IMG/VR virus record: IMGVR_UViG_3300032288_001685
Span: 1-27,256 of that record
Source: a virus
Length of the DNA: 27,256 nucleotides
Direction: 5' to 3' (one strand)
The notes beneath the pieces were generated by a model that saw nothing but the letters and a program-made list of their open reading frames with translations, did no database searches and was not told where the DNA came from. Numbering within the stretch: the stretch's first letter is position 1; every line of letters begins with the position of its first letter. The position numbers and the translations under genes are program-made. Shown here one piece after another: positions 2,510 to 27,005 of the stretch.

Positions 2510-3684
2510 GCATCCTTCGCCGCCTGCTCTCTGAGCAGCGCACCGTCTCTGGCGCACAATGGTTCAGCGATAAGCCAGCCGATTCGTCAGCTGGAGTCCA
2601 AGTCAATCAGCAGAACGCAACATCGATTGGCGCTGTCTATGCCGCCGTCAAGTTGTATGCAGATACCGTTGCCAGCCTACCTATTGGATCGTTCATCCGC
2701 GAGGGCGGGGTGCGTCGACCAGTCACACGACCACTTTGGTATGACGCTCCGATTCCAGCGAACCCTAACTACACAGGATTCCAGTTCCGTCACGCCGTAG
2801 TCTCAAGCCTGTTGCTTGACGGCAACGCGTTCATCCTGTTCCTCACTGACCGGATGGGCGACGTCGTTGAGACGCGAGTACTAGATCCACAGAAGGTAGA
2901 GATCAAGTCAGACGAGAACGGCGTGCCGCTCTATGTTGTGTCAACTAACGACGGCGCATTCAGTGTTGGTCCTGACAAGATGGTGCATATCCCACTCTTC
3001 GCAACCGCTGGTCATCAGCGCGGTATGTCACCTGTTGAGCATCACCGCACGACGCTCGGACTTGCATCCGCAACGCAGCTCTACGCTGCGAAGTTCTACG
3101 AGAACGGTGCTGCTCCATCTGCCGTCATCAAGGTTCCAGGCGAGTTGACGCAGGATGTCTCCGACTCGCTGCGCTCATCATTCAACCGACGCCACGCTGG
3201 CGTAGAGCGTATGCACCAAGTAGCGGTTCTGACCGGCGGTGCAGACTTCCAGCAGATGTCCGCAAAGATCAGCGATATGCAACTCATTGAGACGATGGCG
3301 TGGGGTGTTGAGTCAATCGCTCGCATCTACGGCGTGCCGCTGCACCTGCTCCAGTATCCAGGTGGCAATACCTCATACAGCAGCGTTGAAGTGATCAGCA
3401 TCGAGTGGTTGCGCCTTGGTCTCGGACCACTCATCGCGCGCATTGAGGCAGGGCTTCAGCGCCTGATCGTAGGCAATACAACGTTCGTGAAGTTCAACCT
3501 TGACGGCTTGCTCCGACCAACGACCAAGGAACGCTACGACGCCTACAGCGTCGCGCTCAACAACGGCTTCCTCAGCCTTGACGAGGTGCGCGCACTAGAA
3601 GATCGACCACCGCTTCCGGTTGGTGGCAATGAGTTCTGGAAGCCGCTCAACATTGGCACCGTAGGCAAGGAGCCAAACGCGTGA
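2506..3684 (+). CDS. Portal protein, HK97 family
   Basis: 392-residue portal with GTG start overlapping the upstream stop. Typical HK97-portal landmarks are present: TSIGAVYAAVKLYADTVASL near the N-terminus, DGNAFILF, DPQKVEI, a DKMVHIP segment, then KFYENGAAPSAVI, and GVPLHLLQYPGGNTSYSSVE toward the C-terminus. It forms the dodecameric ring at one capsid vertex through which DNA enters. The length is usual for the family. It follows terL and precedes the protease, the standard head-gene order. Confidence 0.93.
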   Translation: MSILRRLLSEQRTVSGAQWFSDKPADSSAGVQVNQQNATSIGAVYAAVKLYADTVASLPIGSFIREGGVRRPVTRPLWYDAPIPANPNYTGFQFRHAVVSSLLLDGNAFILFLTDRMGDVVETRVLDPQKVEIKSDENGVPLYVVSTNDGAFSVGPDKMVHIPLFATAGHQRGMSPVEHHRTTLGLASATQLYAAKFYENGAAPSAVIKVPGELTQDVSDSLRSSFNRRHAGVERMHQVAVLTGGADFQQMSAKISDMQLIETMAWGVESIARIYGVPLHLLQYPGGNTSYSSVEVISIEWLRLGLGPLIARIEAGLQRLIVGNTTFVKFNLDGLLRPTTKERYDAYSVALNNGFLSLDEVRALEDRPPLPVGGNEFWKPLNIGTVGKEPNA

Positions 3685-5183
3685 GCTACCTGATCGTTGA
3701 CATTGACGGCACGCTGACTACGACCGGCAACACGCCACGACAAGACTTCATTGATTGGCTGAAGGCGTATGTTGCTGATGGTGGCGATGAGGTTATCATC
3801 GTCTCTGCTCGTCCGATTAGCCGACTAGCAGAAACGCGCGACTGGCTCAATGCCAATGACGTGCCACACGCGCAGGTTCACCTGAACGATTTCAGCGAGA
3901 CGCCTGGTCCAAACGTCGGCTTGGAGTTCAAGAAATACAAGTACGAACTTCTTATCAAGCAGTACGGTCTGAACGCTATTGAAGCGGTTATTGATAACGA
4001 TGCCGACGTCCGGGAGATGGCGCGCGGTCTTGGTCTTGATGCTTACAGCCCTGATGAGGCTATGGCAGAAGATCCAATGGAGGAGCCAATGGCAGAGGAT
4101 CGCGCAACCTACGACGTACCTGACTACATTCGCAATGCCGCAGCCAAGGGCTTGGCGTTCGCAGAGGAAGGTCTTGCCGGAGATGGCTTGCAGCCAGAGA
4201 CGCTTACAGAAGCACGCGAACTTGCAGCTGGTCGAGTTGAGAGCGACAAGGTTGTGCGGATGGCTGCGTGGATTCGCCGTCATCGTGGTGACTGGGAAGG
4301 CGTTCCACAGAACAGCGACCGCAATGACGAGAACTTCCCTGGACCAGGTGCCGTTGCAGGATTCCTGTGGGGTGTGGAAACGACTGACCCAGAAGCAACT
4401 GATCGCGTACTCTCGTGGGCAGACGCTCTTATCGCAGCTGAAGATAGGGAGATTGTTGACGTGAAAGAGAAAGAAATCCGCTCAATGCCAATCGGCGAGT
4501 TCCGACTTGGCGAAGCAGATGCCAACGGTCAGCGAACCGTCACAGGCTACGCCTCTATCTGGAACAGCCCATCCTCCGGCTTGCCATTCGAGGAGCGCAT
4601 TGCGCCAGGCGCATTCAAGCGTTCACTGTCGCGCGCATCCGCAGGGCAGAAGATCATCGCCTTCCTCTTCGGTCACGATGAGCAGCGCGCCTTGGCTACG
4701 ACCAAGAGCGGTCGCCTTCAGCTCACCGAGGATGAGACTGGTCTCCGCGTAGAAGCCAAACTAGATCCAGCCGATCCAGACGCCGCGAAGGTCATCTCGA
4801 TGCTGACGCACGAGAGCGAAGCCGCAGGCTGGTCATTCGGCTTCCAGAAGGTTCAGGATGCGTGGGATGGCAACAACCGCACGATCAAGGAAGCCAACCT
4901 CTTTGAGGTGAGCATCCTTGCTGCCGGTGGTCAGACCCCTGCCTACCCTGCGACCCTTGGTCTCACGGCAATCCGCCAAGTCACTGCGCCAAAGATCGGC
5001 GTTGAGGCTGAGGCGCTGGTTGCCACACTTGAAGCAGTCAAGGCTGGACGTGAACTGTCCACCGAGGAAGTGGCTGTCATTGATGCTGTCCGATCCAAAC
5101 TCGCGCCAAAGCCAGTAGGGATTGATCCGTCAATCGCCGCTGCGCTGCTCGCGATTGAATCGGCAGAAGGTGACGCACTCTAG
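3681..5183 (+). CDS. HAD phosphatase-like / unknown domain / HK97 prohead protease fusion
   Basis: 500-residue, three-part protein starting with GTG inside the portal stop. Residues 1-125 look like a HAD-superfamily phosphatase: VDIDGTLT (D7, D9), IIVSAR (S42), basic KKYKYE, and VIDNDADV as motif IV. Residues 140-255 form an alpha-helical middle domain with VVRMAAWIRRHRGDW and GPGAVAGFLWGVE, a module seen in phage head genes without known function. Residues 265-430 are an HK97-type prohead protease, with likely catalytic H332 in LFGHDEQ and S385 in GWSFGF. The protease should cleave scaffold and capsid N-termini. A possible internal GTG at 4461, preceded by AGGGAG, could release the protease alone. 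Domain order is seen in the sequence; the phosphatase role is inferred. Confidence 0.88.
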   Translation: MSYLIVDIDGTLTTTGNTPRQDFIDWLKAYVADGGDEVIIVSARPISRLAETRDWLNANDVPHAQVHLNDFSETPGPNVGLEFKKYKYELLIKQYGLNAIEAVIDNDADVREMARGLGLDAYSPDEAMAEDPMEEPMAEDRATYDVPDYIRNAAAKGLAFAEEGLAGDGLQPETLTEARELAAGRVESDKVVRMAAWIRRHRGDWEGVPQNSDRNDENFPGPGAVAGFLWGVETTDPEATDRVLSWADALIAAEDREIVDVKEKEIRSMPIGEFRLGEADANGQRTVTGYASIWNSPSSGLPFEERIAPGAFKRSLSRASAGQKIIAFLFGHDEQRALATTKSGRLQLTEDETGLRVEAKLDPADPDAAKVISMLTHESEAAGWSFGFQKVQDAWDGNNRTIKEANLFEVSILAAGGQTPAYPATLGLTAIRQVTAPKIGVEAEALVATLEAVKAGRELSTEEVAVIDAVRSKLAPKPVGIDPSIAAALLAIESAEGDAL

Positions 5184-6514: not shown

Positions 6515-6751
6515 ATGCTCGTCCGACTTTGCAAGCGCCGTGGGGAATATCCATCCGGCTCATTCGTGGACCTGCCAGAGGCAGAAGCGAAGAGCCTCAT
6601 TGGCTTTGGCTTGGCTGAGGCTATTGCAGATGTCGACGCAGAGGCACCAACGCGCCACGTAGAGCGCGCTTCTGTGAAGCCGAATACCAAGACAGCCACG
6701 GTGCCTGTTGAGGCTGCTGACGTGGCGGAAATCGTGGAGCCAGAGGCGTGA
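6515..6751 (+). CDS. Small conserved head protein (unknown)
   Basis: 78-residue protein. The ATG at 6515 has AAGGAG 8 bases upstream. A longer open frame from 6458 runs through the capsid hairpin and is not credible as coding. The first half, MLVRLCKRRGEYPSGSFVDL followed by PEAEAKSLIGFGLAE, resembles a short domain often found right after phage capsid genes. The second half is acidic, Ala/Val/Glu-rich and probably disordered. It could be a head accessory or connector-associated protein. No function is established from the sequence. Confidence 0.7.
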   Translation: MLVRLCKRRGEYPSGSFVDLPEAEAKSLIGFGLAEAIADVDAEAPTRHVERASVKPNTKTATVPVEAADVAEIVEPEA

Positions 6752-7011
6752 GCCTAACCACAGGGCAAACCGTTGTGGGAACCACTGCAACCCTCATTGC
6801 CACCGGCATTGTCGGTGCGTCGTGGATCGCGCTGCACGTTGACGGCACCGCCAACATCTTTGTCGGTGGAGCAGCCGTGACCACATCTACAGGCTTTGAG
6901 GTACACAAGGGATCAACACTTACAGTGTGGCTACCAGAGACAGACAAGTTGTACGGAATCGTTGCCAATGGAACTGAAACACTTACTTGGATGCAGACAG
7001 GAGGTCGCTAA
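6748..7011 (+). CDS. Small beta-rich head protein, possible decoration protein
   Basis: 87-residue protein with GTG start overlapping the previous stop. It is rich in Thr, Val and Gly, with alternating hydrophobic stretches (IALHVDGTANIFVGGAAVTT, STLTVWLPETDKLYGIVA) typical of a small beta-sandwich. Proteins with this shape sit next to capsid genes in many siphoviruses and may decorate the capsid or form head fibres. The assignment rests on position and composition only. Confidence 0.65.
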   Translation: MSLTTGQTVVGTTATLIATGIVGASWIALHVDGTANIFVGGAAVTTSTGFEVHKGSTLTVWLPETDKLYGIVANGTETLTWMQTGGR

Positions 7012-18882: not shown

Positions 18883-19091
18883 CCAAGTGGAAGTGCAGCA
18901 TCTGCGCTAGGCAGATGCAGACAGAGACCAAGCCAAGCCTGATCGAGCGTCTCTGTCCTGACTGCTGCGTCAGTCATTGGCAGAAGGTCGTAGAGATCTA
19001 CAAGACAGGCGATGAGGATCGCTTGGCAATCGCCAAGAGCAAGCTGCGCGCCGCGCAGCAGGCATTGAAGAAGACACAGGAGGTCAAGTGA
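18879..19091 (+). CDS. Small zinc-finger protein
   Basis: 70-residue protein, GTG start in a GTGA overlap with GGGAGG upstream. It has CSIC and CPDCC cysteine groups about 20 residues apart, followed by a helix (HWQKVVEIYKTGDEDRLAIA) and a basic C-terminal helix. It is likely a DNA- or protein-binding module. It directly precedes and overlaps the exonuclease gene, so it may be an accessory of the recombination set. Confidence 0.65.
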   Translation: MTKWKCSICARQMQTETKPSLIERLCPDCCVSHWQKVVEIYKTGDEDRLAIAKSKLRAAQQALKKTQEVK

Positions 19092-20050
19092 GCAAGCGAT
19101 ACGAGTTCATTAGCGCGCCGCAGCGCAGCCCTGAGTGGTTCGAGATCCGCAAGGGCGGCATCACCGCCACCGGTATCACCGCCATCAACGGCACCTCACC
19201 GTACAAGACCGCATACCGCCTCTGGGCGGAGTTGACTGGTCAGGTTGGTGAGCAGGCAGCAGGTGCAGCAGCACAGCGCGGTCAGTTGCTAGAGCAGGCA
19301 GTTGCCGACTACTACAGCGCCGAGACCGGCAAGAAGCTGCGGAAGTCGAACGGCATCGTCCGACTCAAAGAGCATCCGTGGGCGATGGCGTCGCTAGACC
19401 GCACCATCGTTGGTGACCCTGAGGGCTTGGTAGAGATCAAGACCTCAACGAGCAGCCGCTGGCAGATCTATCCAGTGCCGCCTGAGTACGTTGACCAGGT
19501 GCAGTGGCAGATGTTTGTGACTGGTGCCAAGTACGCCGATGTGGCAGTCCTACTCTCAGGGCTGGTCTTCCGCATTGAGCGCGTAGAGGCTGACCCTGTC
19601 TACCAGACGATGCTCTTCGATAAGGCGGTTGCGTTCCGTGAACTGGTCGCCAGTGGCACACCGCCACCTCTGACCGGCAACGACAGCGACACGCTCGCAG
19701 AGGTCAAGCCGCAGAGTGGCAACACCTACACGGTCGCTGATCCGCAGCTCGATCACATCGCGCGCCTCTACATCGAAGCGAAGGCTGAGGCAGAGGCTGC
19801 CGATGCTGCACTCAAGGAGATGGCAATCGCCATCAAGGAGGCAATCGGTGAAGGCGAAGGTGTAAAGGGTCAAGGTTGGCTTGCCACCTGGAAGCAGAAT
19901 AAGAGCAGCACCAAGGTGGACTGGAAGTCTGTTGCTGAAGTGTTCGAGTACATCGCTCCAGACACTTATCAGCGCGCAGTCTCGGTTGCTACCAAAGAGA
20001 CGCCAGGGGCGCGTGTGTTCCGAGTCTTCGGTCGTGACGATGCATCCTAA
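19088..20050 (+). CDS. YqaJ-like viral recombinase (lambda exonuclease-like)
   Basis: 320-residue nuclease of the YqaJ/lambda exonuclease type. Motifs include RSPEWFEIRKGGITAT (residues 13-28), the glycine-rich RGQLLEQAV, ASLDRTI with D104, and EIKTS with E116 and K118 forming the PD-(D/E)XK centre. The enzyme should resect double-stranded ends 5' to 3' for the annealase encoded two genes downstream. The C-terminal third is helical, with an Ala/Glu-rich coiled-coil region, and ends in a short beta segment. GTG start in a GTGA overlap. Confidence 0.88.
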   Translation: MSKRYEFISAPQRSPEWFEIRKGGITATGITAINGTSPYKTAYRLWAELTGQVGEQAAGAAAQRGQLLEQAVADYYSAETGKKLRKSNGIVRLKEHPWAMASLDRTIVGDPEGLVEIKTSTSSRWQIYPVPPEYVDQVQWQMFVTGAKYADVAVLLSGLVFRIERVEADPVYQTMLFDKAVAFRELVASGTPPPLTGNDSDTLAEVKPQSGNTYTVADPQLDHIARLYIEAKAEAEAADAALKEMAIAIKEAIGEGEGVKGQGWLATWKQNKSSTKVDWKSVAEVFEYIAPDTYQRAVSVATKETPGARVFRVFGRDDAS

Positions 20051-20639
20051 GGAGATCCGGCTGACCGACGTTGAGGTGCGTCTGGCTACGGACTGGACGA
20101 ACGCCAAGCAGGCGTTCAAGAAGCAGCACCGCGTAGTGGATCAGTGGTACGACCGCAACAGCAACTCGGCAGCCGTTGACCTGATGGGTCGCCTTGGCGA
20201 GATCGCCGCGTGCCGTGCTCTGGATCTGGACTGGTCAACAGTGTTGGACTGGGAGATCCGACCGGAGGGCGATAGCGGCATTGACTTTGTCGCCTATGGC
20301 TATCGGTGGGATGTCAAGACATCAACGCTGCGCGACCTGATCTTCAACAGCACTGAGCACTTCAAGGCAGACGTTGCGTTGCTCGTGCAGCTCGTTGGTG
20401 ATCGACAGCGACCAGAAGATCCAGCGTCGGTGTGGCGCGTCTGGGGCGTGTGCTCTCAGGCAAAGTTCCAACGTGACTGCGTTGAGCACGTCTATGACGA
20501 GCGAAAGCGCGTGAAGGTCACCAATGACAAACTGGTGTCGGTAGATGAGTTCTTTGCTCGTCTCGGTGCTGGAGTAGGCAATGCGCGAGCGCCTCATCAA
20601 GACTCGCGCCTAGTAGTTCAGGAGGGAAGCAATGAGTAA
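20040..20639 (+). CDS. PD-(D/E)XK nuclease-like protein
   Basis: 199-residue protein from the ATG at 20040, which overlaps the exonuclease stop by 11 bases. This ATG lacks a clear ribosome site, while GGAG sits 7 bases before a CTG at 20061, so the true start is unsure. The core RLGEIAACRAL (E54), SGIDFVAYG (D82) and RWDVKTST (D91, K93) has the order and spacing of a PD-(D/E)XK nuclease. It lies between the exonuclease and the annealase, indicating a role in recombination or DNA processing. Confidence 0.68.
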   Translation: MHPKEIRLTDVEVRLATDWTNAKQAFKKQHRVVDQWYDRNSNSAAVDLMGRLGEIAACRALDLDWSTVLDWEIRPEGDSGIDFVAYGYRWDVKTSTLRDLIFNSTEHFKADVALLVQLVGDRQRPEDPASVWRVWGVCSQAKFQRDCVEHVYDERKRVKVTNDKLVSVDEFFARLGAGVGNARAPHQDSRLVVQEGSNE

Positions 20640-21357
20640 GCAAATCGCAGCGGCACTCGCAGCGCCTTTTACCGGAGCCGATCTGAAGACGCGCCCAGGG
20701 CGCGGCGGAATGACCTTCACCTACGCCGACGCGCGAGCCGTAGCTCAACGCCTAGACGATGTTCTAGGGCTGGCTGGCTGGCAGTTCGAGGTTGAGGTTG
20801 CCGACGCGGCACGCTCAGTCGTTCACGGCACTTTGGTTGCCGTCATTGAAGGCGTGACCACCGTCCGAGAGGACTTCGGTTATCCAAACAGCGCTCAGGA
20901 TGACGAGCCGCTCAAGTCTGCTGCCAGCGACGCGCTACGCCGCTGCGCTGCTCAGATTGGCGTGGGGCGGTCTCTTTATGCGTCAGGCACAGGAACGAGC
21001 CTCTCCGTGGCTCCTAGGGCGGTCTCCGTTGATTCTGTGAGCCATTCTCAGCCGTCGGTTTCTACGAACGATCCAGTGGTAGCAGCCGCAATGCTCTTCG
21101 CGGAGGGTGAATGCCCAGACCATCGCACCGCTTGGTCGCACAAGCCTGCCGGTGTCAGCAAGGCTGGCAGGGCGTACAACGCCTTCTACGCCTGCTCTGG
21201 CAAGTCGAACGGCGACTTCTGCAAGAGGAAGCCGAGCATCGCGTGGGTCAATGCCCAGGTGCGCGATGAGGGTGAGGCGATGCTCGCCGCCAAGGCGAAG
21301 GGTCTGCACGATGGCAACCCTGCGCTAGAGACCGCGCTAGAGGAACTGCCGTTCTAG
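20632..21357 (+). CDS. Rad52-like single-strand annealing protein
   Basis: 241-residue protein with AGGAGG before its ATG. Residues 1-125 match the Rad52/Rad22 annealase core: AALAAPFTGADLKTRPGRGG, TYADARAVAQRLDDVLGLAGW, and DEPLKSAASDALRRCAAQIGVG with the conserved DALRRCA helix. A Ser/Val-rich link follows. The C-terminal 75 residues hold a cysteine/histidine module (CPDH, CSGKSNGDFC) that is probably a zinc finger binding single-stranded DNA. It partners with the YqaJ-like exonuclease in phage recombination. Confidence 0.82.
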   Translation: MSKQIAAALAAPFTGADLKTRPGRGGMTFTYADARAVAQRLDDVLGLAGWQFEVEVADAARSVVHGTLVAVIEGVTTVREDFGYPNSAQDDEPLKSAASDALRRCAAQIGVGRSLYASGTGTSLSVAPRAVSVDSVSHSQPSVSTNDPVVAAAMLFAEGECPDHRTAWSHKPAGVSKAGRAYNAFYACSGKSNGDFCKRKPSIAWVNAQVRDEGEAMLAAKAKGLHDGNPALETALEELPF

Positions 21358-21374
21358 TCAACGGCATCATCTAC

Positions 21375-21411
21375 GGCTGGGAGAGACTGGCGACCTCCAC
21401 CTCTCCCAGCC
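21375..21411 (+). terminator. Terminator/attenuator-like hairpin
   Basis: Perfect 11-bp stem GGCTGGGAGAG / CTCTCCCAGCC around a 15-base interior containing TGG and CCA that can pair again, leaving CGACCT at the tip. No T-run. It fills the gap between the annealase and the replication gene and lies about 10 bases before that gene's AGGAGG ribosome site. Confidence 0.65.
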
Positions 21412-21429
21412 ACTAACACAGGAGGACAT

Positions 21430-21864
21430 ATGGTTTGGTTCAAGTGGGTAGCAAACGCACACCGAGACGCAGAGATCTCGGCGCTGACGGATACGCAGTT
21501 CCGCGCGTTCATCACGATCATCGGAGAGGTGAAGCTGCTGCGCTCCGGCGGAGTCTTCAAGAACCGACAGCACCTCAAGACCGTCATTGGTCCACGCCTC
21601 TTCAGGGGTGTGGAAGGGTTGTTGAAAAGTGGTCTGCTGACAGAATCTGGAGACGGCGTCATCGCCGTGTCGAACTACTCTCGCTATCAAGTCGACCCCA
21701 CGTCGACTGCTCGTGGACAAAAGTGGCGAGATCAAAACAGGGGTAGGTCAACGGACAGAGAAAGAGAAGGAGAAGGAGATAAGAATAGAACCCCTATATC
21801 CCCTAAGCGCTCTGGCTCTGGACGGCTCACGCCGATTGGAGAAATCCTTGGAGTGAAGCGCTAA
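21430..21864 (+). CDS. Winged-helix replication protein (probable initiator)
   Basis: 144-residue protein, ATG with AGGAGG upstream. Residues 1-80 (MVWFKWVANAHRDAEISALT, then FRAFITIIGEVKLLRSGG, LHL-type helix, GLLKSGLL) resemble the N-terminal winged helix of phage replisome-organiser/DnaD-type proteins. The rest is basic and charged, with DREREGEGDK encoded by a 23-base all-purine run. It ends GRLTPIGEILGVKR, and the protein is shorter than typical initiators of this group. It probably binds the phage origin and recruits host helicase, inferred from fold and place. Confidence 0.65.
   Translation: MVWFKWVANAHRDAEISALTDTQFRAFITIIGEVKLLRSGGVFKNRQHLKTVIGPRLFRGVEGLLKSGLLTESGDGVIAVSNYSRYQVDPTSTARGQKWRDQNRGRSTDREREGEGDKNRTPISPKRSGSGRLTPIGEILGVKR
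21757..21790 (+). other. Purine-rich tract inside replication gene, origin candidate
   Basis: Run of 23 purines (21757-21779), then T and more purines to 21790, then C-runs flanking CTATAT. Strand-asymmetric tracts inside initiator genes mark origins in lambda-type phages. Here it is only a candidate, with no clear iterons. Confidence 0.3.
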
Positions 21865-22274
21865 TGAGGGTACGAGTGGAGAACCCTTCAGCTCGCACGC
21901 TCTTGCAGAGAGAACGACGAGCGAAGGAGACTCCAGAGGAACGAGCGATGAGGGTGTTGAAGTACACGCTCTACAACCACCGGATGACGATGGAGCAATA
22001 CACGGCATTGAGGGTGGCACAGGCTGATCGGTGTGGAGCGTGCAGAGAGCCGCTGCGCTTTGGTGAGCCTAGAGCGGTGACGGTCGATCACGATCCGCGC
22101 TGCTGCCAGTATGAGGGAGCCGGTATGCGAAGGGTGCAGGGTCAGCCGATCTCGTGCGGCAAGTGCGTCAGGGCGCTGCTCTGCGGACCGTGCAACCGTG
22201 CCGTCGGATTCGTTGAGCGCTATCCACAGCGCATTCATATGTGGATTGAGTACGTCAGGAGGGTAAGCAAGTGA
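21864..22274 (+). CDS. Endonuclease VII-like resolvase
   Basis: 136-residue protein, ATG overlapping the previous stop (TAATG). It has the recombination endonuclease VII pattern: a CGAC pair (C57, C60), the metal/catalytic VDHDPRC (D75, H76, D77), and VRALLCGPCNRAVG (C107, C110, N111). These form a zinc-bound His-Me finger nuclease that cuts branched DNA such as Holliday junctions, needed before packaging. The N-terminal 30 residues are basic. It sits between the replication protein and dNMP kinase in the early block. Confidence 0.88.
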   Translation: MRVRVENPSARTLLQRERRAKETPEERAMRVLKYTLYNHRMTMEQYTALRVAQADRCGACREPLRFGEPRAVTVDHDPRCCQYEGAGMRRVQGQPISCGKCVRALLCGPCNRAVGFVERYPQRIHMWIEYVRRVSK

Positions 22275-22864
22275 ACATCGCATTCGTAGGACCACAGGGG
22301 TCTGGTAAGTCAACGCTCGCGGCAATGCTGGAGCAGCGTCGCCTACATCCGTACACGATCCTGCCTATCGCCGAGACGATCCGCACGGTAGCGGCGCTCG
22401 GATACGGCGAGGACTTCGACAAGAGCAAGCAGTACAGCCAGCGACGCCTAGGGCTAGACGTTGAGGTCTCTGGTCGTGAGATCCTCCAGGAGATCGGCGC
22501 GCAGCTGCGAGAACTGGATGCATCGTTCTGGATCAAGGCGTGGCACGCCGAGTACCTGAAGGTCAAGAACGGCAACCGGCTGGTGGTGGTGGATGACGTT
22601 CGTCTACCGCTAGAGGCGCACTACCTCCGGCATCACATCCCTGGCATCGTGATTGTCCGAGTCCACGCTACGGCTGAGGCTCGCACACAGCGCCGTGGGG
22701 TGCTGCAAGGGGTCAGCGACGTCACCGAGTTTGGGTATCTCCAGACCGAGTACGACTTGCAGATCGACACGACGGACTTGACAGCGGATCAGTCGTACGC
22801 AATCCTGCGGAAGCATATGGTGGATAACGGCTTGTGGCAGTCATCCTATGAGGAGGAATCGTGA
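22271..22864 (+). CDS. Deoxynucleoside monophosphate kinase-like
   Basis: 197-residue P-loop kinase. It has GPQGSGKST at residues 7-15 and VVVDDVRLPLEA around 104-115, the DVR-type motif of phage dNMP kinases, plus a basic lid-like segment AEARTQRRGVLQG. It should phosphorylate dNMPs to dNDPs for phage DNA synthesis. GTG start with AGGAGGG upstream, overlapping the endonuclease VII gene. It is the only recognised nucleotide-metabolism gene here. Confidence 0.8.
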   Translation: MNIAFVGPQGSGKSTLAAMLEQRRLHPYTILPIAETIRTVAALGYGEDFDKSKQYSQRRLGLDVEVSGREILQEIGAQLRELDASFWIKAWHAEYLKVKNGNRLVVVDDVRLPLEAHYLRHHIPGIVIVRVHATAEARTQRRGVLQGVSDVTEFGYLQTEYDLQIDTTDLTADQSYAILRKHMVDNGLWQSSYEEES

Positions 22865-23073
22865 GCGCAGCATTGACGGAACTTGAGACGCGCGCAGCGC
22901 AGCTCGGCTATCACTACGACGGCTTGGTTCGTGTCGGTGAGCCGCCACTCTGGACGGTGGTACTCATCGACACGGCTGGGTCTGAGCTGACATTCCAGGC
23001 GGACAGCATTGAAGGAGCGGTCGAACTGGCAACGGATCGTATGGCGCTCCTGTCTGGGATGGTTGACCTGTGA
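22861..23073 (+). CDS. Small protein of unknown function
   Basis: 70-residue protein with GTG start in a GTGA overlap and GGAGG upstream. The shape is helix (ALTELETRAAQLGY), strands (PPLWTVVLIDTAGSELTFQA) and helix (SIEGAVELATDRM). The family is not recognised, although this compact alpha/beta layout occurs in small phage accessory proteins. Both neighbours overlap by four bases, so it is likely translated. Confidence 0.62.
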   Translation: MSAALTELETRAAQLGYHYDGLVRVGEPPLWTVVLIDTAGSELTFQADSIEGAVELATDRMALLSGMVDL

Positions 23074-23255
23074 GCGGGTTCCAGTGGATCGGCATCACAC
23101 TCGTGGTGCTCAACGTTGCACTGTTCTGCGTGGTCTTCGCTAGTCTCCCTATCGCAATCAAGAGAGGTCAGGGCGTGGCAGCGTCAATGATCTACCTGCT
23201 CACCACAGCAGCAACCGTGGTCTGGATCTGGAGGGCGCTCGAATGGCAGGCGTAA
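23070..23255 (+). CDS. Small two-TM membrane protein
   Basis: 61-residue protein, GTG start in a GTGA overlap. Two hydrophobic helices (about residues 7-29 and 38-55) are joined by a positive loop IKRGQG, predicting both ends outside and the loop in the cytoplasm. The gene lies far from the lysis block. It may alter the host membrane or exclude other phages, but no family is recognised. Confidence 0.62.
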   Translation: MSGFQWIGITLVVLNVALFCVVFASLPIAIKRGQGVAASMIYLLTTAATVVWIWRALEWQA

Positions 23256-23434
23256 AGACCAAGCGTGGCGGCGCAGCTAAGCCGCCGGTATGGACGGTGA
23301 CTGACTGCACCGAATGTGGCAAGGTCATTGACTACACCGATCCGAAGCGGCAGGTCTTCCCTGGTCAGCGCGTGCTGGTTATCAGCGGCAAGAGCAGACG
23401 CTTTGAGTGGCGGCACAAGGGCTGCGTCAAGTGA
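23243..23434 (+). CDS. Small cysteine-containing protein
   Basis: 63-residue protein, ATG overlapping the previous gene by 13 bases, with GGAGGG about 6-10 bases upstream. It has a basic start (KTKRGGAAK), a CTEC pair and a late C-terminal HKGC, which could together bind zinc. The middle is beta-rich (RVLVISGKSRRFEWR). Function unknown. Confidence 0.58.
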   Translation: MAGVKTKRGGAAKPPVWTVTDCTECGKVIDYTDPKRQVFPGQRVLVISGKSRRFEWRHKGCVK

Positions 23435-23721
23435 GTCAGACCGAGATCCTCTGCAACGAGCTGGATGACGGCATCCGCTGCGTGCAAGAGGGTGCTGATG
23501 CTTGGTGCTATGACCCCAAGATTGGTCGGCAGTTTGCCAAACTTAGCATTCGCTATGTGGATGCTATCGCACCGGACGGCTGGTTCTTTCTCAACGAGCA
23601 TATCTTCAACCGCCGGACAATCCTTGACCTGATCAAGGCTGGACATCTAGAGGTGAGCGAGTCAGTATTCACCTTGTCCGATGGTGGGCAGGCACGACTA
23701 GGAAGGCTGGTACGCAAGTGA
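23431..23721 (+). CDS. Winged-helix-like small protein
   Basis: 96-residue protein from the GTG at 23431 in a GTGA overlap, although the frame is open from 23407. The N-terminal half has three cysteines. The C-terminal half, NRRTILDLIKAGHLEVSESV followed by LSDGGQARLGRL, looks like a winged helix with the usual 'LTDAGRARL' wing. It could be a small regulator. Confidence in function is low. Confidence 0.58.
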   Translation: MSQTEILCNELDDGIRCVQEGADAWCYDPKIGRQFAKLSIRYVDAIAPDGWFFLNEHIFNRRTILDLIKAGHLEVSESVFTLSDGGQARLGRLVRK

Positions 23722-24080
23722 GTCATATGTCAGACGCTGACATCGATCAGCAGAACGCGGAGAAGTCCAAGCGCGGGAAGCGCGCACGCAATAAGGGCAA
23801 TGCTTTTGAACGCGAGTGCGCTGCCAAGCTTGGAGCAATCCGTGTTGGTCAGTTTGGAGGCAAGGTAGATATCCAGTCCGACTGGATCGTCGCGCAGTGC
23901 AAGGTGGGCAACGGCTCTTACTCGGAGCGCTACGACGGATGGCTTCGCTCGGTCAAGGGCAACGCTAACCAGATCGCGGCACTCGTCGTTGGCGACGCAC
24001 CTGGACCAGGTACGCGCCGCCGCACAATGATCGTGATGGACTTCGAGGCGTTCGTTGACCTAATGGGGAAGAGCAGCTGA
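23718..24080 (+). CDS. PD-(D/E)XK endonuclease-like, Holliday resolvase type
   Basis: 120-residue protein, GTG start in a GTGA overlap. A basic N-terminus (KSKRGKRARNKGNAFEREC) precedes GGKVDIQSDWIVAQCK. The arrangement E31/E33, D51, then Q60-C-K62 matches archaeal Hjc/PD-(D/E)XK resolvases, with Gln where Glu or Asp is usual in the ExK step. It may cut branched DNA alongside the endonuclease VII-like enzyme, or bind DNA without cutting. Confidence 0.68.
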   Translation: MSHMSDADIDQQNAEKSKRGKRARNKGNAFERECAAKLGAIRVGQFGGKVDIQSDWIVAQCKVGNGSYSERYDGWLRSVKGNANQIAALVVGDAPGPGTRRRTMIVMDFEAFVDLMGKSS

Positions 24081-24577
24081 CAGCGCTCCTACTGGCTCTC
24101 ACGCTGCTTACCGGCAGCGGAGGTCCAGACCTGACGCCGCACGGCGTGCCGACACACGGTGTCGCCACCTGGTACGGCGCTCGGTGTCCTAGAGGGGTCG
24201 CCTATCTAGGCAGAGTGGATACCTGTACGCCATACTTGAGCACGGCTCAGGGTGGTCGCGGGGGCGAACTGGTGATGTATGCAGCAGTTGGCTCGTTCTC
24301 GTACTATGCGAAGCCATACAAGATCAAGGTGTGCCGAGCTGACGATCCGACGCGCTGCGTCATCGTGACGGTGAGGGATGAGTGCGCCGGAGGGTGCAGG
24401 AGGGATCTGAAGAAACCGTGGAACAGCAAGAGCCGCGCCGTCGATCTGTCTCCAACCGCGTTCTCTCGTCTCGCGCCGCTCGGCAGAGGCGTGCTCGCGG
24501 TGACCATCAGCGAGGTGAACTTCCTGAGCAGCAGCGAGAGTTCCAACTGGCTTGTACGGCGTGGTCTAGAGCACTAG
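24077..24577 (+). CDS. RlpA-like double-psi beta-barrel protein, probable CTG start
   Basis: About 166 residues if started at CTG 24077, which forms a 4-base CTGA overlap with the previous stop and has GGGGAAG 7 bases upstream. The nearest usual start, GTG 24146, has no ribosome site and would remove the hydrophobic leader TALLLALTLLTGSGG, a likely signal peptide. The mature part matches RlpA-like/DPBB proteins: HGVATWYGARC, VIVTVRDEC and SRAVDLSPTAFSRLAPLGRG. At least six cysteines could form disulfides outside the cell. RlpA-type domains bind or cut peptidoglycan strands; an activity here is inferred. Confidence 0.68.
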   Translation: MTALLLALTLLTGSGGPDLTPHGVPTHGVATWYGARCPRGVAYLGRVDTCTPYLSTAQGGRGGELVMYAAVGSFSYYAKPYKIKVCRADDPTRCVIVTVRDECAGGCRRDLKKPWNSKSRAVDLSPTAFSRLAPLGRGVLAVTISEVNFLSSSESSNWLVRRGLEH

Positions 24578-24876
24578 GGATCAAGCTCAACGCGCTGTTC
24601 AACCTGATGCCGAACTACGGTCGCAGCGTTCACTGGATGCGCGAGCGCTACTACGGCGGCACGTTCGTTGATGACATCGACATCAAGTGGGTGGCTGATG
24701 CCGCCGCTGGCAACATTGGCGTGATGCCTGTTGACCGAATGCGTCTATACGTCACCGCCGTTGAACGGATGTGCCACTACTGCGCTGGTGGTGACGAGGA
24801 CAAGAATCCGACCTGCTGGGATTCAACCTGCGCGCTGCGATCTGTCTCGCCTCTTCCACTGAGGGTCAAGAAGTGA
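24382..24876 (+). CDS. Helix-turn-helix protein with C-terminal cysteine module (start uncertain)
   Basis: Frame open from GTG 24382 to 24876 (164 residues). The first about 55 residues lie over the RlpA-like gene and are Arg/Gln/Glu-rich shadow-like sequence, so the true start is probably nearer 24546 (a CTG) or 24607 (an ATG). The convincing part begins ACTAWSRALGIKLNALFNLM, a possible helix-turn-helix, and continues WVADAAAGNIGVMPVDRMRL. It ends with CHYC, CWDSTC and RSVSPLPLR, a likely zinc-binding tail. It is probably a DNA-binding regulator. Confidence 0.6.
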   Translation: MRRRVQEGSEETVEQQEPRRRSVSNRVLSSRAARQRRARGDHQRGELPEQQREFQLACTAWSRALGIKLNALFNLMPNYGRSVHWMRERYYGGTFVDDIDIKWVADAAAGNIGVMPVDRMRLYVTAVERMCHYCAGGDEDKNPTCWDSTCALRSVSPLPLRVKK

Positions 24877-25076
24877 TGCGCTACGATTCTCCAGCGACAG
24901 CGCGACCGTTTGGTGTGCTGCTGTCACTCGCCCTGCCGGTGGTGTCCTCCCATCGGCAGGGTCTAACCTGGGGCAGCGTAGACGCTCGCACGACCACTAT
25001 GGCTATTGCCGGTCAGCGGGGAACGAGTGGTGCAACTCCACTCCTGCTCCACCACTACTGGAGGGCGAATGGCTAA
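24873..25076 (+). CDS. Doubtful small protein over a hairpin region
   Basis: 67-residue frame from GTG 24873 in a GTGA overlap, ending 8 bases into the next gene. It has a short hydrophobic part (GVLLSLALPVV) and otherwise Thr/Gly-rich sequence with no family. A 12-bp hairpin crosses it. The 4-base overlap favours translation, while the odd composition argues that this may be mainly a regulatory gap of about 190 bases. Confidence 0.35.
   Translation: MMRYDSPATARPFGVLLSLALPVVSSHRQGLTWGSVDARTTTMAIAGQRGTSGATPLLLHHYWRANG
24931..24961 (+). terminator. 12-bp hairpin with CCTC loop
   Basis: CCCTGCCGGTGG / CCATCGGCAGGG (one G-T pair) with loop TGTCCTC. No T-run follows. Its tip resembles those of the hairpins at 18015 and 21375 (TGG, then CCT, then CCA). 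It lies upstream of the HExxH gene whose ribosome site is GGAGG. Confidence 0.5.
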
Positions 25077-25473
25077 ACAGGACAAGTTCGCGCAGCTCCG
25101 AGGGTGGGTCTCGGATGCACAGGTGCTCCTAGGCATTGACCACTGGGAGATCACCATCGTTGAAGCCGCCTCTGACGTGGACGCCTGGGCGGACATCGAC
25201 GCCCACGCACAAGCGCCAACGGCTGACCTACGCGTCAGTCACGACTTCTGGACGCAGACGCCTGAGAAGCAGCGCCTGATCTTGGTTCACGAGTTGATGC
25301 ACCTAGTGCTGGCACGCTATGCGCGTGTCGCTGAGACGATGGAGGAGTCACTCGGCAAGTTGGCGTGGGCTGTCCTAGAACCGCAGCTGGAGGACGCCGA
25401 AGAGCGCGCCATTGAGCATCTCGCTCGCGTGCTGGCTCCCTACCTGGCGCTACCGGCATTCCCTAAGGCGTGA
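25069..25473 (+). CDS. HExxH zinc-peptidase-like protein
   Basis: 134-residue protein from the ATG at 25069 (GGAGGG 4-8 bases upstream), although the frame is open from 25006. The motif VHELMHLVL gives H74, E75 and H78 on a helix, the zinc-binding HExxH of gluzincin-like peptidases. An acidic helix EDAEERAIEHLARVLAP follows and may supply a third ligand. Phage proteins of this small size with HExxH often have unknown substrates. It could cleave a host or phage protein. Confidence 0.68.
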   Translation: MAKQDKFAQLRGWVSDAQVLLGIDHWEITIVEAASDVDAWADIDAHAQAPTADLRVSHDFWTQTPEKQRLILVHELMHLVLARYARVAETMEESLGKLAWAVLEPQLEDAEERAIEHLARVLAPYLALPAFPKA

Positions 25474-25802
25474 AGCGCACACAACGACCCTGCCTCACCT
25501 GCGGCGTGCTGACTACGCACGGCGACCGCTGCAACGTCTGCGGTCCGCGTAAGGCGACCGAGTGGGCGCGCAACCGTGGACCATCGCCCTATCGAACTGC
25601 CGACTGGCGACGCTTGAGCGTTCAGAAGCGGAAGGAGGTTCCGTTCTGCGAACTATGCGGTCAGCGGGATAACAATCCACAGAACCCACTCACCGCCGAC
25701 CATCTCGTGCCACTGGCAGAGGGTGGCGCTCTTATCGTGCCGACGTATATGCTACGCACGCTATGCAGGACTTGTCACGGCAAGGTGACTAAGCACAAGT
25801 AG
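25470..25802 (+). CDS. HNH endonuclease
   Basis: 110-residue protein, GTG start in a GTGA overlap. It has an N-terminal zinc ribbon (CLTC and CNVC), then YRTADWRRLSVQKRKE, and a C-terminal HNH fold with CELC, TADHLVPLAEGG and LCRTCHGKVTK. H78 fits the catalytic His. The usual Asn before LCRxCH appears replaced (PTYMLRTLC). HNH proteins near terminase genes help cut packaging sites in HK97-type phages, and this gene lies about 2 kb upstream of terS on the circle. Confidence 0.83.
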   Translation: MKRTQRPCLTCGVLTTHGDRCNVCGPRKATEWARNRGPSPYRTADWRRLSVQKRKEVPFCELCGQRDNNPQNPLTADHLVPLAEGGALIVPTYMLRTLCRTCHGKVTKHK

Positions 25803-25811
25803 GAGGACGCA

Positions 25812-27005
25812 ATGGCAAAGATCGTCGCAGTCGGGAATAGTCCAATGGTGCCAACGGGCTACGGCACGCAACTGGCGCAGCTCGGACTCCGCGCATTGAG
25901 GGCAGGACACGACTTCAGCGTGGCTGCCAACTACGGCGCTCCTGTGAATATGGAGTGGAACGGCATCAAGATCCACGCCGAGGGTCTGCTCAAGTATGCC
26001 AACGACTCAGGACCTGAGAACATCGCCCTGGCTGCTCGTGATGGTGGCTTCGGTCTTACGCTCTTTGACGTGTGGACTGCCGTTGCAGATGGCTGGCACA
26101 CGTTGCCGCTGGTCTGCTGGGTGCCTGTAGATCACGCGCCTGTGCCACGTCGAGTGGCTGAGTGGTGCCTCAAGGGGGATAACAAGTACATCGTTGCGAT
26201 GAGCCAGAACGGCGAGAAGCTGCTGCTTGAGGCTGGCGTTCCACGCGAGCGACTCACCTACATCCCTCACGCCATTGACCGCTCGATCTGGAATGCAGAC
26301 GTGCAGCCAATGCGCGAGACACTCCGCGTGCCGGAGGACGCGCACCTGACGATCATCACCGCGATGAACAAGGGAAAGCGTAAGTCGTTCCCTGAGATGC
26401 TCCACGCCTGGACGCTCTTCGCTCGGCGCTTCTCCGATGCCTACCTCTACCTGCACACGGACAAGTGGGGTCACCTAGACGGCATCAACCTGATCCCTCT
26501 GCTCAAGTTGCTGAACGCACCAGAGGATCGCATCCGCTGGGTGAACTCAGTGCAGATGCGCGCTGGCGTACCGGCTGAGACGCTGGCTCGGCTAACGCGC
26601 TCCGCTGACGTGCTGCTCCTAGCATCACGCTCCGAGGGCTTTGGTGTTCCAGTCATTGAAGCGCAGGCGGTTGGCACCCCTGTGATCGTCAGCAACCACA
26701 CGGCACAGCCTGAGCTAGTACGTGACTACGGTCACGTCGTACAGGGTCAGTTGCACTACGAGGACTTCCAAGAGTCCTTCTCGATCATCCCTAACGTTGA
26801 CGGGATCTACCAAGCGCTGTGCGAGAACTACATCGCCACTAAGACTGGTGACATTGACCGCGCGCGCCTAGCCGCCACGATGCTTGAGTACGACGCTGAC
26901 TTGGTCTACGCGACCAAGTGGGAGCCGCTCTTCCAGAAGGTGAGCGCTCTGTTCGCCAATAAGCCTGAGCCTGTGAACCGCGCCGCACGCAGAGCCAAGC
27001 GATGA
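25812..27005 (+). CDS. Glycosyltransferase, GT4-like
   Basis: 397-residue protein, ATG with AGGAGG upstream. A GT-B fold is indicated by the N-terminal GNSPMVPTGYGTQLAQLGL, the centre YIPHAIDRSIWN and the C-terminal SRSEGFGVPVIEAQAVGTPV. The last carries an E-x7-E motif (E275, E283) typical of family 4 retaining enzymes. The donor and acceptor are unknown. Likely targets are virion proteins or DNA, since the gene lies between the HNH endonuclease and the packaging genes and no sugar-nucleotide synthesis gene is present, so host sugars would be used. The C-terminus is basic. Confidence 0.85.
   Translation: MAKIVAVGNSPMVPTGYGTQLAQLGLRALRAGHDFSVAANYGAPVNMEWNGIKIHAEGLLKYANDSGPENIALAARDGGFGLTLFDVWTAVADGWHTLPLVCWVPVDHAPVPRRVAEWCLKGDNKYIVAMSQNGEKLLLEAGVPRERLTYIPHAIDRSIWNADVQPMRETLRVPEDAHLTIITAMNKGKRKSFPEMLHAWTLFARRFSDAYLYLHTDKWGHLDGINLIPLLKLLNAPEDRIRWVNSVQMRAGVPAETLARLTRSADVLLLASRSEGFGVPVIEAQAVGTPVIVSNHTAQPELVRDYGHVVQGQLHYEDFQESFSIIPNVDGIYQALCENYIATKTGDIDRARLAATMLEYDADLVYATKWEPLFQKVSALFANKPEPVNRAARRAKR

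Follow-up and report, generated by a model that had tools for sequence, protein, structure and literature searches.

A phage prohead protease gene with an exchangeable phosphatase front half and a conserved internal start that very probably yields a free protease as well

Why should the gene for a head maturation protease begin with a phosphatase-like domain, and does such a gene make one protein or two? Both questions are raised by a locus in a 27,256-nucleotide stretch of viral DNA (IMG/VR record IMGVR_UViG_3300032288_001685), the whole of which is called the window here. In it, one open reading frame on the plus strand (3681..5183) starts with GTG, encodes 500 amino acids and joins three domains (Table 1). 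The start of this frame overlaps the stop codon of the portal gene in the sequence GTGA. The gene order is small and large terminase, portal (PF04860), the fusion gene, an HK97-type capsid protein (PF05065) and a gp6-like connector, neighbors that place the fusion gene in the head module of a tailed phage.

Table 1. Coordinates of the fusion gene and of the features within or next to it, in window positions.
Feature	Positions	Strand	Basis
Gene for the long product, 500 aa (HAD, helical domain, prohead protease)	3681..5183	+	Pfam, PHROGs, sequence
AAGGAG, Shine-Dalgarno-like site of the long product	3667..3672	+	Sequence; similar AGGAG in most relatives
HAD phosphatase domain, C0 type, Pnkp-phosphatase-like, residues 1-125	3681..4055	+	Predicted fold, T4 Pnkp match, conservation
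Variable acidic linker, residues 126-140	4056..4100	+	Extra modules at the same place in relatives (Cys cluster, DUF5824-like)
Helical domain (HEL), residues 141-260, without Pfam name	4101..4460	+	Predicted fold; viral structure matches
AGGGAG, internal Shine-Dalgarno-like site; AGG is the Arg256 codon	4446..4451	+	Codon conservation
Putative nested gene, free prohead protease, 240 aa, GTG start, same frame and stop codon	4461..5183	+	Start-site conservation; L220
Peptidase_S78 core, residues 279-425	4515..4955	+	Pfam; H332, S385 and E409 invariant

Several other genes of the window deserve mention. Behind the capsid gene, an 87-aa protein (6748-7011) is 31% identical to an 89-aa protein that precedes the protease gene of Pontimonas phage phiPsal1; from this likeness, it is possibly a small head or decoration protein that has moved. 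A recombination set (19088-25802) comprises a RecE-like exonuclease (19088-20050), an Erf-like annealing protein (20632-21357), an endonuclease VII (21864-22274), a dNMP kinase (22271-22864), a weak RusA-like match (23718-24080) and an HNH protein (25470-25802). A glycosyltransferase gene lies at 25812-27005 (phrog_2170, 3.7e-26); in phiPsal1, the glycosyltransferases adjoin the capsid gene. Among the window proteins scanned, no match to an RNA or DNA ligase was found.

For the C-terminal part of the product, the original prediction of an HK97 prohead protease with H332 and S385 was borne out. Its core matches Peptidase_S78 (PF04586) with an E value of 1.2e-30 and 107 bits against a curated cutoff of 21, the head maturation protease family phrog_80 of PHROGs is matched at 2.8e-33, and H332, S385 and E409 are invariant in 25 sequences, phiPsal1 included. 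On these sequence matches, the assignment of residues 261-500 to the S78/HK97-type prohead proteases can be regarded as secure, and cleavage of head proteins inside the prohead is predicted.

For the N-terminal part, in which a HAD phosphatase-like domain had been suspected from D7/D9, S42 and an IDNDAD motif, the residues are in place (D7, D9, S42, R44, K84 and I104-D105-N106-D107-A108-D109), and C0 HAD motifs I (DxDxT), II (S/T), III (K) and IV (acidic) are all present. Pfam HAD families scored below their curated cutoffs (PF08282, 1.1e-3; PF25109 HAD_PNKP, 8.6e-3), the phage polynucleotide kinase family phrog_415 of PHROGs matched at 1.3e-11, and Pnkp1 of the Hen1 RNA repair complex (4xrp) was found by profile at 5e-8. 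An AlphaFold2 model built on a 41-row alignment has the HAD fold at a pLDDT of 95.3; the contrary outcome, a first domain lacking this fold, did not occur. T4 Pnkp was the best of 1000 chains compared with the model (Z 17.0, rmsd 2.0, 21% identity over 118 residues), with Nir2/LNS2 (Z 14.9) and lipin-type phosphatases (Z 13.7) next; the best structural matches are HADs without a large cap, and the fold is Rossmannoid and of the C0 type. Across 41 non-redundant HADs, D7, D9, T11, R44 and K84 occur in every one, as does Ser or Thr at position 42, while D105 of motif IV is Asp in 39 and Glu in 2. Values of dN/dS between 0.03 and 0.26 against several relatives indicate that purifying selection acts on the domain. 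Motifs, modeled fold and selection together argue in favor of an active phosphatase. We rejected the reading of the domain as a degenerate remnant, given the kept catalytic residues and the low dN/dS.

The substrate of this predicted phosphatase cannot be read from the fold, since Pnkp, Nir2/LNS2 and the lipin phosphatidate phosphatases are all close to it, and the enzymes nearest in fold work on such different substrates as the 3' ends of nucleic acids and phosphatidate. Beyond the HAD motifs, the nucleic-acid-specific residues of the T4 Pnkp 3'-phosphatase are Arg176 and Asp254; the alignment is gapped at these positions, and no clearly conserved counterpart is visible there. Pfam gave no match to a kinase domain in the 500 amino acids, and the phrog_415 match is confined to the HAD (residues 5-134). 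Two relatives, L226 (2883-3227) and L229 (2330-2674), carry divergent HADs with a KTHxT-like module in front and Glu in place of the first Asp of motif IV, a replacement that perhaps alters or weakens the metal site.

Scanning viral contigs turned up at least 215 relatives of the gene, and many more came to light when each domain was used on its own. The same fusion, which the original prediction had proposed to seek in related phages, is the rule among the closest of them: HAD, helical domain and protease are joined in every one of the 79 close sequences, the window among them, whose start is complete, with D7, D9, T11, S42, R44, K84, D105, H332 and S385 invariant. Relatives keep the motifs under purifying selection and do not show the domain as a degenerate remnant. 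Among GenBank phages, no record covers 80% of the 500-aa protein; the best-covered phage is phiPsal1 (residues 147-432, 38.5%), where other front modules precede the helical domain and the protease. A scan of genomes gave a sole fairly close case, L235, a contig filed under an uncultured Microbacteriaceae MAG, from which an actinobacterial host is only a guess. The protein of L235 (3775-5685) is a 636-aa protease with two Tudor-like modules and the helical domain, and has no HAD. In L216 (1379-2762), the frame is broken between the helical domain and the protease; we considered a natural split here and rejected it, taking the break as a probable sequencing or assembly frameshift.

The question of a second product turns on codon 261, the first of the protease domain, which in the window is the GTG at 4461; AGGGAG ends nine bases upstream of it. 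In close relatives, this codon is ATG in 74 and GTG in 7 of 81 cases, and Arg256, present in 75 of them, is encoded by AGG without exception, compared with 22 of 2438 Arg codons (0.9%) elsewhere in these genes, counts of 75 or 81 that are not independent events because close relatives share ancestry. Descent inflates such raw counts; changes in motif and start codon are the more independent evidence. A diverse set comprised 54 versions with a divergence above 10% around the junction. Exactly at codon 261, 45 of these 54 have ATG, GTG or TTG, and for 39 of these 45 the predicted ribosome pairing is at or below -6 kcal/mol, a strength reached by 14% of the 1328 other NTG codons in frame. Where the residue at the site is Val, it is spelled GTG in 16 of 17 versions (background 29%), and where it is Leu, TTG in 5 of 5 (background 16%); Arg codons just upstream are AGG in 30 of 38 (against 4.3%). 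Indeed, quite different peptides (DREI[VI]D-M, EERFD-V, QKESNA-M and AKGES-M) all spell out a Shine-Dalgarno sequence. These preferences for AGG, GTG and TTG led us to reject pure chance as the origin of the internal GTG. Synonymous change is low around the site and equally low in other 7-codon windows of the gene, and we did not use this dip as separate proof.

One could still hold that the internal start is an unused relic of a recent gene fusion and that the 500-aa protein is the sole product. Such a relic would fit the split arrangement of L220, in which a stop codon closes the front modules and the protease has a gene to itself that begins at this very position, as well as the nine of the 54 diverse versions that have no start codon at the junction, two of which (L105 and L129) show AAGGAAATTGAAATG a few codons later. 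Against it, a relic should have drifted to CGN Arg codons and to non-start codons, yet Shine-Dalgarno and start are kept across different peptides and across changes between ATG, GTG and TTG, and we consider it very improbable that the start is unused. The nine versions imply instead that a free protease is not essential in every lineage, the internal start being common and not universal. The gene has what we ask of an in-frame two-product gene, a conserved internal start with a Shine-Dalgarno sequence, and by this codon evidence it very probably makes two proteins, the long fusion and the free protease; the latter, put forward earlier as an option on the basis of the GTG and AGGGAG alone, is now strongly supported by the conservation of both start and AGG. 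Taken with the shared architecture of the relatives, this codon signature puts the three-part gene, as judged from sequence, far beyond chance. For the long product, 78 of 79 sequences use GTG or TTG as the start, and ATG prevails at the internal site, which hints at an excess of free protease over the long form; the window phage has GTG at both sites.

In contrast to the near-constant protease, the region upstream of the internal start is, on sequence comparison, swapped quickly. The front modules of relatives occur in many combinations and include HAD, KTHxT-like, Hva1_TUDOR (PF11160), Cys-cluster, DUF5824 (PF19141) and helical domains. Mapped onto a 53-row tree of the proteases, the HAD must have been gained or lost at least 6 times, as branches with good support require. 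The proteases of L002 and L068 are 99.2% identical and their HADs 50.8%, and L166, whose protease is 97.9% identical to that of L002, has no HAD at all. The front half thus seems to be an exchangeable attachment. As the internal start sits at the junction of modules and protease, it may keep the supply of protease constant and uncoupled from the modules being exchanged. With the HAD as one of several such modules, the fusion itself is less special than the plug-in arrangement. A Cys-rich module (CxxCxFY...CxKW...YYCxAW) lies between HAD and helical domain in L070 and in relatives such as L063 and L068; it shows a weak likeness to HIPIP iron-sulfur proteins and is also found in phiPsal1 and other proteases of the family.

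The helical domain, which had been predicted as an unnamed one, is indeed without a Pfam name and was modeled with a pLDDT of 94.4. It gave no structural match in the PDB at E<=0.001 and no profile match of weight; among predicted viral proteins, structure comparison gave 33 matches at E<=0.001, to proteins called prohead protease, XkdF, portal, ParB and Dps. Two BFVD entries with the domain bear the name HAD-like, so similar proteins are already in databases, only under automatic names. Its fusion to many phage head proteins, XkdF and portal included, raises the possibility that the front half serves as a scaffold or for targeting, much like prohead scaffolds encoded within protease genes: the helical domain would attach to portal, capsid protein or protease, and the HAD would be kept mainly for binding or for regulating phosphoproteins during assembly. 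Lambda C and Nu3 act together in an initiator complex (PMC3224144). However, versions with HAD and protease that have no helical domain exist, so the latter is not a required scaffold; binding alone has no need of a HAD active site conserved residue by residue; and the short product here is the protease and not a scaffold. We therefore regard such an assembly factor as improbable.

Our preferred reading, to which we give a probability of roughly 0.55, is that of a two-product head-maturation gene. Translation from GTG 3681 would give the 500-aa fusion of an active C0-type HAD phosphatase, helical domain and protease, translation from the internal GTG 4461 would give the protease alone, and the upstream part would be swapped by recombination while the supply of protease stays constant. 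The long form would join the prohead as a minority subunit together with free protease and carry its N-terminal modules inside, where the protease would cut them loose during maturation, the acidic linker being a plausible place of cleavage; the HAD would take phosphate off a nucleic-acid end or a nucleotide, either in the prohead or after delivery. The sequences themselves show the domain make-up, the kept catalytic residues, purifying selection, the conserved internal start and the swapping of modules; entry of the phosphatase into the prohead, its release and its packaging, as put forward in the original prediction, are plausible, so that this prediction is partly supported. In endolysins, single genes are proven to encode both the entire protein and, from a second start within the frame, its C-terminal part, the two ending at one stop codon and in one case forming a 1:5 complex (PMC9430671); by analogy a few long among many short subunits would bring HAD and helical domain to the head.

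A different fate for the phosphatase also has to be weighed. The HAD is most like the phosphatases of phage polynucleotide kinases, which elsewhere are separate non-structural genes, and free-standing relatives of the HAD are separate genes in mycobacteriophages, Streptomyces phages and Klebsiella jumbo phages; since free protease could cover all head work, the HAD, with the helical domain, might be a cytoplasmic enzyme acting on nucleotides or nucleic-acid ends, with the fusion a by-product of gene packing and the long form cut or never entering the prohead. We judge this to be rather unlikely, because the in-frame fusion is kept in nearly all versions although a single stop codon splits it in L220, and because the many kinds of module found at the same site in relatives fit a shared destination. 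Carrying the two-product reading further, the front of the protease gene could be a plug-in site for cargo, whose enzymes and binding modules would enter the prohead on a minority of protease subunits by co-assembly with free protease, be cut loose by the protease itself, and be packaged or ejected with the DNA into the next host, where the phosphatase would act on nucleic-acid ends or on host defense signals. We offer this last reading as a tentative possibility; cargo borne in this way on the protease would parallel the internal proteins that T4 packages.

Three features are noteworthy, namely that the phosphatase is intact, that the internal start is conserved and that modules are swapped fast, and we found no paper that describes them together. 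Nor was a published description of this fusion or of an internal start in prohead protease genes found, in a search with most subscription journals outside its scope. Should both proteins be produced, gene callers go wrong across an entire family of phage head proteases, reporting the long fusion only and overlooking the free enzyme. Fast swapping of modules before a near-constant protease would also mark a general route for enzymes into the forming capsid, which could help in the discovery of packaged phage effectors and in filling capsids with cargo, and the role of a phosphatase inside or beside the prohead becomes a testable question.

Compared with known systems, the gene combines familiar parts in its own way. 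Classical HK97-type prohead proteases are about 200-240 aa long; the gene resembles them in its domain match, its His and Ser and its placement between portal and capsid genes, and differs in its N-terminal HAD phosphatase and nested internal start, although PHROG 80 itself takes in members with N-terminal modules, such as phiPsal1. With the T4 Pnkp 3'-phosphatase and phage polynucleotide kinases (PHROG 415, 505), the product shares the C0-type HAD fold, DxDGT, S-x-R, the Lys and the acidic motif IV; unlike T4 Pnkp, it lacks a kinase domain and is fused to a protease. The two-polypeptide endolysins (PMC9430671) likewise come from one gene each, with a second start inside the frame and one stop codon for both products. 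Unlike in these cell-wall enzymes, the short product of the window gene would be a complete maturation protease. Lambda Nu3 is nested in frame within gene C, and the window gene would likewise be a protease gene with two in-frame products, with a role in prohead assembly that we infer here. In lambda, however, the nested short product is a scaffold, whereas in the window gene the nested product would be the protease, and what the long form adds is an exchangeable set of modules.
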